In this document: positions 1,112 through 11,887 of the stretch, piece by piece
How the letters are laid out: every line of letters begins with the position of its first letter
How positions within the stretch are numbered: position 1 is the stretch's first letter
From: Bacilli bacterium
Lineage (GTDB): Bacteria > Bacillota_I > Bacilli_A > ML615J-28 > CAG-698
DNA length: 35,990 nt
Reading direction: 5' to 3'
NCBI GenBank assembly: GCA_028691715.1
Contig: JAQUYR010000005.1
Coordinates: 1 to 35,990 of the forward strand
The notes under the pieces: model-generated
What the model was told of the DNA's origin: nothing
What the model saw: the letters and a program-made list of their open reading frames with translations, nothing else
Databases searched by the model: none
Translations under genes and position numbers: made by a program

Positions 1112-2015
1112 TGTTTTAATAATTGGTGCCGGACCTGCAGGTATGACTGCAGCAATTTACGCCGCTAGAGGGAATTTAAAAGTAGGTATTATTGAGCATG
1201 GTGCCCCTGGAGGTGCAATGGTAAATACCTCTACAATAGAAAACTATCCAGGATTTAAAAAAATCGATGGTGCCTCTTTATCAATGGAAATGTTTGAACA
1301 GGTGAATGAACTCGGAGTCGAATATTTGGGATATTCAGCACAAATGATTAAAAAAGAGGATAGGGAATTCACTATTAAAGTAGATGGCTTAGATGAAGAA
1401 TTAGAAGCAAAAGCTGTAATCATTGCTACAGGGACAAAAAATAAGGTCCTTAATATTCCTGGAGAAAAGGAATACACTGGGCACGGAATATCTTGGTGTG
1501 CTATCTGTGATGGATCTTTTTACAAAGCAAAGGATGTTGCTGTCATCGGTGGGGGAAATTCTGCTTTAGAAGAAGCTTTATATCTTTCTGATATTGCTAA
1601 GAAGGTCTATATAATTCATCGCCGTGAAGGCTTTAGGGGTGCTGAGATTCTTTTAAGCAAGTTAAAAGAGAAGAAGAATGTTGAATTTATTCTAAATACA
1701 GTTCCTATTGAATTTCTAGGTAATGATAATCTTCAAGAAATAAAATTAGAAAACAAAGTGGAGAACAGAATTTTTAATATTAAAGTAGAGGGATGTTTTG
1801 AATATATTGGACAACAACCATCTAGTACTTTAGTTCATGCTTTAGATATTTCTGATGAAAATGGTTATATTCTAGTTGACAGGAACTATGAAACAAAAAT
1901 TAAAGGACTTTTTGCCTGTGGCGATATAGTGGCTAAAGAAATCAGACAGATTGCAACAGCTGTAAACGATGGAGCTATTGCTGCCTTAAATGTTATTAAA
2001 TATTGTAAGGAATAA
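1104..2015 (+). CDS. trxB: Thioredoxin reductase (NADPH)
   Basis: A flavoprotein of 303 aa that passes electrons from NADPH to thioredoxin in the cytosol. The N-terminal FAD site is GAGPAG (residues 8-13). The redox-active pair is Cys132/Cys135 in WCAICDG. The NADPH site is GGGNSA (149-154) followed by HRREGFR (172-178). The C-terminal FAD motif is CGD (about 273-275), followed by the QIATAVNDGAIAA stretch. All catalytic elements are present, so the enzyme is expected to be active. The start overlaps ppaX by 8 bp and whiA follows after 3 bp, so the genes form one operon. Confidence 0.95.
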   Translation: MYDVLIIGAGPAGMTAAIYAARGNLKVGIIEHGAPGGAMVNTSTIENYPGFKKIDGASLSMEMFEQVNELGVEYLGYSAQMIKKEDREFTIKVDGLDEELEAKAVIIATGTKNKVLNIPGEKEYTGHGISWCAICDGSFYKAKDVAVIGGGNSALEEALYLSDIAKKVYIIHRREGFRGAEILLSKLKEKKNVEFILNTVPIEFLGNDNLQEIKLENKVENRIFNIKVEGCFEYIGQQPSSTLVHALDISDENGYILVDRNYETKIKGLFACGDIVAKEIRQIATAVNDGAIAALNVIKYCKE

Positions 2016-2018
2016 AAT

Positions 2019-2966
2019 ATGTCTTTTGCTAGTGATGTAAAGAAAGAAATCAGTAACATCCAAGGCGATGATTGTTGTTTGAAGGCTGAACTATATTCAA
2101 TAATAAAATACCGGGCAACTATAAAAATATCATCAGGTGATTTTAAAATAGAAATTGTAACAACTCTAAATTCAATAGCGAGAAGAATAGTCTATTTATA
2201 TAAAAAGCTATATAATATAAAACTCGAAATAATCCTTGTTGAACAAAAAAAGCTAAATTATAAAGATGTATATGTTCTGACAACAACAGAAAAAGGATTA
2301 TATGTCCTTAAAGATCTCAATATAATCGATGATAATTATGAAATAAAGCAAGATATTGCTGAGGTTATGTTCACAAAGAAATGTTGTAAAATAAGCGTTT
2401 TAAGAGGAGCCTTTATGGTTAGAGGTTCGCTTAACGATCCCAAAAAGAGTAATTATCATTTAGAAATAGTTGCTATGAATCAGAATGACGCTGATTTTTT
2501 AATAAAAATTCTTGGCGATGTTGGGATAGTAGGGAAGAGTATTGTTCGCTCTAAAGGTGTTGTTGTTTATCTGAAAAAAGCTGAACAAATTGCAGATTTT
2601 TTACGATATATCGGAGCAACAAATAGCTTATTTTATTTTGAAGATGAAAGAATTAGACGTGATTATAGCAATTATGCCAATAGAACAATTAATTGTGATA
2701 TCGCCAATGAAGAAAAAGCGATAACTACTGCTGCTAGACAGTTAAAAAACATTGCCTACATTGAGAACAACTATGGATTGTTAAATCTATCTGAAAGATT
2801 AACAGATGCTGTTTTACTCAGAAACACATATCCTGATGATTCCTTATCACAATTAAGTGAAAAATCTGAGGAATTAATAGGAAGGTATATCTCTAAATCG
2901 GGTCTGAGTCATTGTTTTAAGGATATCGAGAGAATGTGTATCCAAATAAAAAAAGATAAGAAATAA
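2019..2966 (+). CDS. whiA: DNA-binding protein WhiA
   Basis: At 315 aa it matches the usual WhiA length. WhiA combines a degenerate LAGLIDADG homing-endonuclease-like N-terminal domain (about 1-200, including the LRGAFMVRGSLNDP block) with a C-terminal helix-turn-helix (about 225-310, with the block LTDAVLLRNTYPDDSLSQL). In Gram-positive bacteria it affects cell division, chromosome segregation or development. It follows trxB by 3 bp. In Bacillus subtilis rapZ (yvcJ) and yvcK lie between trxB and whiA; both are absent here. The 3' end faces the minus-strand XRE gene, with only 3 bp between the two stop codons. Confidence 0.93.
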   Translation: MSFASDVKKEISNIQGDDCCLKAELYSIIKYRATIKISSGDFKIEIVTTLNSIARRIVYLYKKLYNIKLEIILVEQKKLNYKDVYVLTTTEKGLYVLKDLNIIDDNYEIKQDIAEVMFTKKCCKISVLRGAFMVRGSLNDPKKSNYHLEIVAMNQNDADFLIKILGDVGIVGKSIVRSKGVVVYLKKAEQIADFLRYIGATNSLFYFEDERIRRDYSNYANRTINCDIANEEKAITTAARQLKNIAYIENNYGLLNLSERLTDAVLLRNTYPDDSLSQLSEKSEELIGRYISKSGLSHCFKDIERMCIQIKKDKK

Positions 2967-2976
2967 ATCTTATCTT
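2948..2976 (-). terminator. Terminator of the minus-strand XRE gene, overlapping the whiA 3' end
   Basis: An 8-bp perfect stem (AAGATAAG at 2953-2960, CTTATCTT at 2969-2976) encloses an 8-base loop. Read on the minus strand, the stem is followed by a run of T (the A-run at about 2948-2954). On the plus strand there is no T-run, so it should act mainly for the minus-strand gene. The stem uses the last codons of both convergent genes. Confidence 0.6.
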
Positions 2977-3197
2977 AGATTCGAAAAGTCAAATAAATCT
3001 TTTATATCTACATCAAGTGATTTAGCAATTTTTTCAATGTTTTTTAAGGTGATATTCTTTTCTGCTCTTTCGATGTGACCGATGTATGTACGATGTAATC
3101 CTGTTTCGTAACCAAGTACTTCTTGGGAGTAACCTTTACTATTTCTTAGTTGTCGTACTCGTAATCCAAATAGCACATTTATGCTTTTTTCTTGCAT
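2970..3197 (-). CDS. Small XRE-family HTH regulator
   Basis: 75 aa, essentially one Cro/CI-type helix-turn-helix domain: LRVRQLRNSKGYSQEVLG forms the first helices, HRTYIGHIERAEKN the recognition helix, and TLKNIEKIAKSLDVD the closing helices. The frame stays open upstream to 3251, but GAAGGTGAT lies 6 bases before the ATG at 3197, and a good minus-strand promoter ends at 3220. The shorter start is therefore chosen. Size and layout resemble restriction-modification controller proteins and stand-alone phage-type regulators; no restriction gene is nearby. It is divergent from acpS. Confidence 0.8.
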   Translation of the reverse strand: MQEKSINVLFGLRVRQLRNSKGYSQEVLGYETGLHRTYIGHIERAEKNITLKNIEKIAKSLDVDIKDLFDFSNLR

Positions 3198-10319: not shown

Positions 10320-11099
10320 ATGAAAGAAACGATTATCGGATTACTTATCCCATTTTTAGGGACAACACTTGGTGCTGGAATGGTATTTTTAATTAGAAAA
10401 GAAATAAAGCCGGCAATTCAAAAACTATTATTGGGATTCGCTTCTGGAGTAATGATTTCGGCATCTGTTTGGTCTTTACTCATCCCTTCAATTAATATGT
10501 CAGAGACTCAAGGAGTGATTGCTTGGCTCCCACCAACAATCGGATTTCTGTTGGGAATGGGATTTTTATTGTTACTCGATACAATAATTCCCCATTTGCA
10601 TTCTAGAACATCTAAACCTGAAGGGGTAAAGACAAAATTAAATCGGACTACTATGTTAATCTTTGCGGTTACACTACATAATATTCCTGAGGGAATTTCT
10701 GTTGGGGTGGTTTTTGCTGGAGCTTTAGCGGGAAATACTGGGATAACAATGGCTGGAGCTTTAGCTTTAGCTATCGGTATTGCTATTCAAAATTTTCCTG
10801 AAGGAGCAATTATTTCCATGCCATTAAAAGCTGAAGGAAATACTAAAAGAAAATCCTTTGCATATGGAGTTTTATCGGGAATTGTTGAACCAGTTGCCGC
10901 CTTTATCACTATTTTGCTGACTAATATTATGGTACCAATTTTACCATATCTACTAGCTTTTGCTGCTGGAGCTATGATTTATGTAGTTGTTGAAGAATTG
11001 ATACCTGAATCTCAAAAAGGGGAGCATTCTAACATTGCCACTATTGGTATTGCTGTTGGTTTTGCTATTATGATGATTCTTGATGTAGCCTTAGGGTAA
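10320..11099 (+). CDS. ZIP-family divalent metal transporter
   Basis: 259 aa with about eight membrane segments. The two signature helices are intact: HNIPEG (120-125) in segment IV and QNFPEG (157-162) in segment V, which together form the binuclear metal site. EELIPE (about 225-230) is the conserved late motif. A short His-containing loop (PHLH, 91-94) lies in the cytosolic loop between III and IV. It most likely imports zinc, perhaps iron or manganese; specificity cannot be read. AAAGAAAGGG precedes the start by about 8 bases. It is monocistronic, ended by the hairpin at 11130. Confidence 0.9.
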   Translation: MKETIIGLLIPFLGTTLGAGMVFLIRKEIKPAIQKLLLGFASGVMISASVWSLLIPSINMSETQGVIAWLPPTIGFLLGMGFLLLLDTIIPHLHSRTSKPEGVKTKLNRTTMLIFAVTLHNIPEGISVGVVFAGALAGNTGITMAGALALAIGIAIQNFPEGAIISMPLKAEGNTKRKSFAYGVLSGIVEPVAAFITILLTNIMVPILPYLLAFAAGAMIYVVVEELIPESQKGEHSNIATIGIAVGFAIMMILDVALG

Positions 11100-11129
11100 A
11101 CAGAAACTCAATAAGATATTATTGAGTCA

Positions 11130-11162
11130 GAGCGTTGACAAAGTCAACGCTCACATTTTTTT
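11130..11162 (+). terminator. Terminator of the ZIP transporter gene
   Basis: A perfect 10-bp stem, GAGCGTTGAC (11130-11139) with GTCAACGCTC (11143-11152), loop AAA, followed by a run of seven T (11156-11162). Confidence 0.85.
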
Positions 11163-11261
11163 GTTTACTAGTTTTTACTAAGTGGGGATTTATTTCATAT
11201 ATAGGCCATTTGTGGGGGTATATTACTATAATATACTCCTTTTTATACCTTGTGTGGTGAA

Positions 11262-11302
11262 AATAAAAAACTACCTTTTTTAAAAATACAAAAAGGTAGT
11301 TT
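11262..11302 (-). terminator. Minus-strand terminator inside the hairpin-rich element
   Basis: A 13-bp stem (11268-11280 with 11290-11302). On the minus strand it is followed by a T-rich tract; on the plus strand it is followed by TGTCATC, so it is oriented for leftward transcripts. Confidence 0.6.
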
Positions 11303-11314
11303 GTCATCAGTCTG

Positions 11315-11342
11315 ACTCAATAAGATATTATTGAGTTTTTTT
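11315..11342 (+). terminator. Right palindrome of the element, terminator-like on the plus strand
   Basis: A 9-bp stem with GATA loop runs directly into a run of seven T (11336-11342). Confidence 0.6.
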
Positions 11343-11395: not shown

Positions 11396-11887
11396 ATGAG
11401 AGAACTTGAATTTGTATTGTTAACAGAAAAGGATATTATTCCGATGACAAAAATAATGAAGGAGGCTTTTGATGCCGATTCATTGATGCACTTAGGAAAA
11501 ATTGGAGGACCTCCAGGATATGATAATGGTGAGTTTCTGAGGAAATATGGATTACATGAGAAATCAACAGCTTATAAAATATTGCTAGAAAAGGAAGCAA
11601 TTGGGGTAGTTATTTTATGGATTAACGAAAAGACTAACATCAACTTCCTTGGCTGTATCTTTATAGATCCTAAAGTTCAAGACCAGGGACTTGGCCTAGA
11701 TATATGGAAGATGATTGAAAAAATGTATCCCGATACTATCAAATGGTGTACTGAAACACCAACATTTTCTCGTAGAAATCATAACTTTTATGTCAACAAG
11801 TGTGGCTTCCATATTGTTAAAATTGATAATCCCCATAGTATTGAAGAGGGATCATTTAATTTAGAAAAGGTTATGAAGAAGGGATAG
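11396..11887 (+). CDS. GNAT-family N-acetyltransferase
   Basis: 163 aa from the ATG at 11396, set by GGAAGGT six bases upstream (an in-frame TTG at 11381 precedes that site). The acetyl-CoA binding motif A is FIDPKVQDQGLGLDIWKMI, with QDQGLG as the pyrophosphate loop. The closing YVNKCGFHIVK is the usual GNAT end (Y..xGF). The acceptor substrate is unknown. The stop is one base from the start of the nitrilase gene, and a CAT-like enzyme follows, so the three may act on related small molecules or amines. Confidence 0.85.
   Translation: MRELEFVLLTEKDIIPMTKIMKEAFDADSLMHLGKIGGPPGYDNGEFLRKYGLHEKSTAYKILLEKEAIGVVILWINEKTNINFLGCIFIDPKVQDQGLGLDIWKMIEKMYPDTIKWCTETPTFSRRNHNFYVNKCGFHIVKIDNPHSIEEGSFNLEKVMKKG

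Follow-up and report, generated by a model that had tools for sequence, protein, structure and literature searches.

The window examined here, a stretch of 35,990 nucleotides, comes from the genome of a Bacilli bacterium (G000; assembly 82% complete). The stop codon of a ZIP-family metal transporter gene in this window lies 6 bp upstream of the first of two identical copies of the palindrome ACTCAATAAGATATTATTGAGT (11106-11127 and 11315-11336), which an earlier note had correctly recognized. The inverted match that it saw in the flanks is also present and extends over 39 nt with 87% identity (11104-11142 versus 11300-11338), because the palindromic duplication adjoins the imperfect terminal inverted repeats, CAGAGCGTTGACAAA (left) and CAGACTGATGACAAA (right), of the intervening element. 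All three of its inner stems can be found as well, including one plus-strand and one minus-strand terminator (Table 1). The left-end stem pairs 11130-11139 with 11143-11152 and precedes a T-run, the central stem pairs 11215-11225 with 11229-11239, and the right-end stem, a terminator when read on the minus strand, pairs 11268-11280 with 11290-11302. The structured region as a whole folds at -84.2 kcal/mol, compared with -42.8 (sd 4.4) for shuffled sequences (z -9.5), and its structure is real and far beyond chance.

Table 1. Features between the ZIP and acetyltransferase genes, in window coordinates
Feature	Position	Strand	Remarks
ZIP-family metal transporter gene; its terminator is the target	10320..11099	+	Pfam PF02535 Zip, E 1.2e-24
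Left target-site duplication, 22 bp, ACTCAATAAGATATTATTGAGT	11106..11127	+	Terminator hairpin, now without T-tract
Mobile element (MITE), 187 bp, CAG...CTG	11128..11314	+	Further copies in G000, G002; diverged in G011, G004, G025
Left terminal inverted repeat CAGAGCGTTGACAAA	11128..11142	+	
Left-end hairpin, partly terminal repeat, then T-run: plus-strand terminator	11130..11152	+	
Central A+T-rich hairpin GGGGGTATATTACTATAATATACTCCT	11214..11240	+	Clear only in the genus of G000
Right-end hairpin AAACTACC...GGTAGTTT	11268..11302	-	Minus-strand terminator
Right terminal inverted repeat CAGACTGATGACAAA	11300..11314	-	Minus-strand reading
Right target-site duplication	11315..11336	+	Retains original T-tract 11336-11342
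GNAT-family acetyltransferase gene, downstream	11396..11887	+	Pfam PF00583

The palindromes had been taken as the ends of a 233-bp element. The unit that recurs elsewhere is the 187 bp between them, from CAG to CTG, and this mobile unit is non-coding, with no ORF of at least 80 aa inside 11128-11314. Its boundary is set by copies whose adjoining base is not T or A, namely one spanning contigs C62 and C96 of the same genome, with the duplication ACGACTCATAATTGAGTCGC, and the enterococcal insertion sequence ISEfa7, with the duplication GGATTGAACATTATGTTCAATCC. The palindrome itself has no further match with up to three mismatches in the window or the assembly (0 expected in window shuffles). The two 22-bp palindromes thus represent the duplicated target site, the terminator hairpin of the upstream ZIP gene, and not the ends of the element.

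A search with 371 bases around the element finds three more copies in G000 that are 93-98% identical (two in C62, one of them continuing in C96). G002, which represents another species of this genus, has further copies, and G011, G004 and G025 have diverged ones with the same ends. Every copy lies in a different hairpin, likely a terminator, that is present on both sides of the element (for example AGCTCTTTTCAATAAAGAGCT, AGAAAGAAGATACTTCTTTCT, AAGTCTATATCAAAATATAGACTT and AAACCCCTATCGGGGTTT), and a T-tract usually follows just one of the two hairpin copies, as expected if a terminator was doubled. The element was not found in plasmid DNA, nor was its exact left-end pattern found in viral contigs.

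The association with hairpins is general. A hairpin that starts at the boundary adjoins 68 of 78 distinct element ends, compared with 357 of 20,000 random positions (1.8%). Both flanks are available for 24 insertions, 12 of mini-elements (including a 166-bp one in G022) and 12 of full insertion sequences; the duplication measures 17-30 bp, is always the target hairpin, and has two identical copies in all but two cases (22/24). At most one outer hairpin pair fails in the 19 listed insertions, and windows of this quality make up 0.8% of random ones. Flanking hairpins are unrelated between sites, and most insertions lie directly behind genes, next to stop codons, with a T-tract following.

Comparison with related genomes, which between genera rests on diverged flanks, reveals sites without the element. 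The occupied site in G004:C62 reads AAACTACTGGCAACAGTAGTTT-element-AAACTACTGGCAACAGTAGTTTTTTT, and with synteny on both sides the empty counterparts in G018 (AAAACTACTGTAATCAGTAGTTTTTTT) and G025 (AAAACTACTGGAAACAGTAGTTTTTATT) carry one hairpin each. A second G004 site also has one hairpin, diverged, in its G025 orthologue. At these sites one hairpin became two on insertion. Empty sites, which the earlier note had suggested looking for, therefore exist for the G004 insertions but not for the window copy: the ZIP orthologues in G001 and G002 yield no orthologous empty site because another gene follows each of them. None was found for the G000:C62 copy either, where synteny ends after the upstream gene. 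The ZIP orthologue in G004:C47 (L132 / L286) has a diverged MITE at its terminator, the result of an independent insertion.

A third comparison sets the hairpin-element-hairpin arrangement of G002:C77 (L114) against G001:C16:10300-11000 (L330), where the element is missing and two tandem, slightly different hairpins are present. This site could be read as support for a simple slip of the element between two pre-existing tandem hairpins, with nothing duplicated. Such a history is very unlikely, since flanking hairpins are identical within a site and unrelated between sites, and site 2 has a single hairpin in both G018 and G025. The G001 tandem also fits a possible excision that left both target copies behind, although it could instead be an older tandem.

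The same observations bear on whether the locus is a mobile element at all. Strong stems, two of them terminator-like, might be nothing else than nested terminators or a structured-RNA cassette, as the earlier note had also considered. This reading is extremely improbable in view of the multiple copies in unrelated flanks, the inverted ends, the empty sites and the autonomous relatives described below. A search of the window against Rfam at gathering scores detects tRNAs only, and no Rfam family matches the stems, which are end-proximal terminators. The single immobile copy in constant flanks that would have spoken against mobility is contradicted by the copies and empty sites, and the suggestion of a MITE is borne out: several copies have differing flanks, the ends are inverted repeats, targets are duplicated, and both empty sites and autonomous relatives exist.

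These relatives are full-length, agree with the MITE in their ends and in the type of duplication, and encode IS1182-family transposases of an ISEfa7-like branch. The G034 element has 1583 bp between its ends and a 22-bp repeat, the G039 element has 1651 bp and a 26-bp repeat, and full-length cases with one flank occur in G018, G025 and G049. The transposases of G034, G039, G018 and G049 match NF033551 above its cut-off, and Pfam assigns DUF772 and DDE_Tnp_1_6 to those of the autonomous elements. The same ends and duplication recur in plasmid elements of E. casseliflavus, B. subtilis, Listeria, Sutcliffiella, Peribacillus and E. faecium (ISEfa7), and in elements of streptococcal phages; CAGACTGTWGACAAA-type ends are common to the MITEs and the insertion sequences.

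ISEfa7 is the closest named counterpart. ISEfa7 and ISEfa7-like elements share with the MITE their terminal repeats (CAGACTGTAGACAAAG versus CAGAGCGTTGACAAAG) and insertion at hairpins, and ISEfa7 likewise duplicates the whole hairpin; its duplications in two plasmids of E. faecium measure 20 and 23 bp. It differs in being autonomous and 1536 bp long, whereas the MITE has 187 bp and codes for nothing. Its transposase and that of the G034 relative share 49% identity.

Hairpin duplication is absent at IS1182 elements with other ends, namely ISSau3, ISBf3, the GGGG-ended enterococcal type and an element of G054. In a tree of 20 transposases, which has long branches and an arbitrary root, one branch (support 100/99) parts 12 duplicating from 5 non-duplicating elements; IS1272 is outside this tree, and the non-duplicating comparison consists of ISSau3 and GGGG-ended IS1182 elements. 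In a Staphylococcus simulans plasmid (L336), the hairpins on the two sides of an IS1182 element of the same branch differ from each other, probably because copies have recombined.

Autonomous elements with matching ends are present in G018, G034 and G039. Neither G000 (82% complete) nor G002 yielded a transposase with matching ends; the genomes of this lineage are, from their contig numbers and completeness, fragmented metagenome assemblies, and such assemblies frequently lose multicopy elements. G000 has a single IS1182 element, in C136, with other ends, so the partner of the MITE is missing from the assembly or the strain. Between the interiors of the MITE and the insertion sequences there are matches at the ends and weak matches only, with no clear likeness to any one insertion sequence.

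A terminator-like hairpin, AAAAAAAGGGCAAATTTATA / TAAATTTATATTTGCTCTTTTTTG, has the C136 element (L247, about 1331-3077) inside its loop. AAATTTATA stands on both sides of the element, which recalls pathway c of PMC5678879, where only the loop is duplicated. In G003:C12, a candidate autonomous element of 1.8 kb was discarded because no hairpin flanks its left end. In G003:C54:1-234 (L216 / L225), a similar end lies beside a hairpin and after a coding sequence with the rve-like motif VERSHRIDNERFY, which suggests from sequence that ends of this type may also occur with a different family of transposases.

An IS30-family transposase might in principle move the MITE. IS1630 of Mycoplasma fermentans belongs to this family and, according to the title of Calcutt 1999 as cited in PMC3317919, targets and duplicates inverted repeats. 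In G045, whose in-frame TGA codons suggest a mycoplasma, part of a terminator hairpin is repeated on either side of each IS30-family copy (L167, L177, L181, L184, L187, L189, L191); the IS30 copies of G052 are not flanked in this way. IS1630 differs from the MITE in its unrelated transposase family, its other ends and its autonomy. The carriers G000, G002, G004, G011, G018 and G025 contain no IS30 transposase, and the ends of the G045 copies, ACGAATTAAAATTGG, differ from the CAGACTGTTGACAAA that is common to IS1182 elements. Mobilization by an IS1630-like IS30 transposase was rejected on these grounds and is scarcely credible.

The element is very probably a 187-bp non-autonomous MITE of the IS1182 family, ISEfa7-like branch, that took the ZIP gene's intrinsic terminator as its target and doubled the hairpin there. 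The target is apparently recognized by shape and not by sequence, because the relatives use many unrelated hairpins. The same MITE might instead be served by a transposase that is drawn to transcription termination, through paused polymerase or supercoiling, with the hairpin as a by-product. The position of most targets just after stop codons and before a T-tract speaks for this alternative, but it is unlikely: over the range of 17-30 bp, cut points coincide with the feet of the hairpin in question, and some targets are poor in T (1 T in 8 in G022, 2 T in 8 in G039). The absence of a common target sequence, together with cut points that match the hairpin feet, would favor recognition of structure.

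Under structure recognition, an ISEfa7-like IS1182 transposase acting in trans would recognize an extruded hairpin or cruciform at the target and carry out strand transfer at the 5' feet of the hairpin. Gap repair could then duplicate the whole hairpin on both sides of the MITE, and the duplication would be as long as the hairpin because repair copies all of it. Comparable elements are IS1272 and TnSha1, IS1182-family elements of staphylococci that target hairpins, often terminators, with no sequence preference and that delete or replace the target hairpin without duplication (PMC4923244, PMC5678879). The hairpin is replaced there and doubled here; no deletion of the IS1272 type is seen, as a hairpin stands on both sides of the element. 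In the model proposed for IS1272, the extruded stem-loop is removed when joining takes place at its 3' feet, whereas 5'-foot joining would lead to its doubling (PMC5678879, Fig. 13 pathway b). By their sequences, the present elements display the doubling outcome predicted as pathway b. According to PMC5678879, palindromic targets had already been mentioned for some IS1182 members by Siguier et al. Our literature search, with ISfinder outside its scope, found no report of hairpin duplication by IS1182 elements or of such a MITE.

The stems at the ends of the element appear to be maintained. All copies retain the left-end hairpin pairs, with one two-sided change, and three pairs of the right-end hairpin have two-sided changes across genera. 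Taken together across genera, the end terminator stems include 4 pairs and 8 cells with two-sided changes, and 97.6% of cells are paired. The score of the stems exceeds those of all 500 shuffles, in an alignment of only 9 distinct rows, several of them closely related. Selection for insulation would account for this conservation, and so would selection on end shape alone. A GTGGG motif recurs in the same orientation within 11180-11270, once at about 55 bp from the left end and once ahead of the right stem, and it is conserved across genera (alignment A1); these repeats are possibly an inner transposase-binding site. The pneumococcal MITEs SPRITE, RUP and BOX are also short, non-coding, intergenic repeats with strong stems, and SPRITE resembles a terminator, but duplication of a target hairpin is not described for them in the review (PMC10969869).

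Insertion may be nearly neutral for the host gene. The left hairpin copy has lost its T-tract, but the left end of the element forms a terminator of its own. The original T-tract stays with the right copy, which so restores the target terminator, and the right end would stop transcription on the other strand. Landing behind genes and restoring a terminator on both sides would explain how such elements could spread cheaply. Paired identical terminators may likewise mark a mobile element, and annotators should be warned accordingly.

The target duplications of most DDE transposases have a fixed length. Here the length follows the target's own hairpin, and hairpin duplication has arisen in two unrelated transposase families, IS30 and IS1182. 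We regard it as reasonably probable that ISEfa7-like transposases recognize DNA secondary structure and cut an extruded hairpin at its feet, which would leave the duplication length (17-30 bp) to be set by the target and not by the enzyme; within the same family, the replacement caused by IS1272 would then differ only in the foot attacked, and the MITE would be a minimal substrate whose terminator ends silence the insertion. The branch includes named elements of culturable bacteria such as ISEfa7, and recognition of target structure is therefore directly testable.
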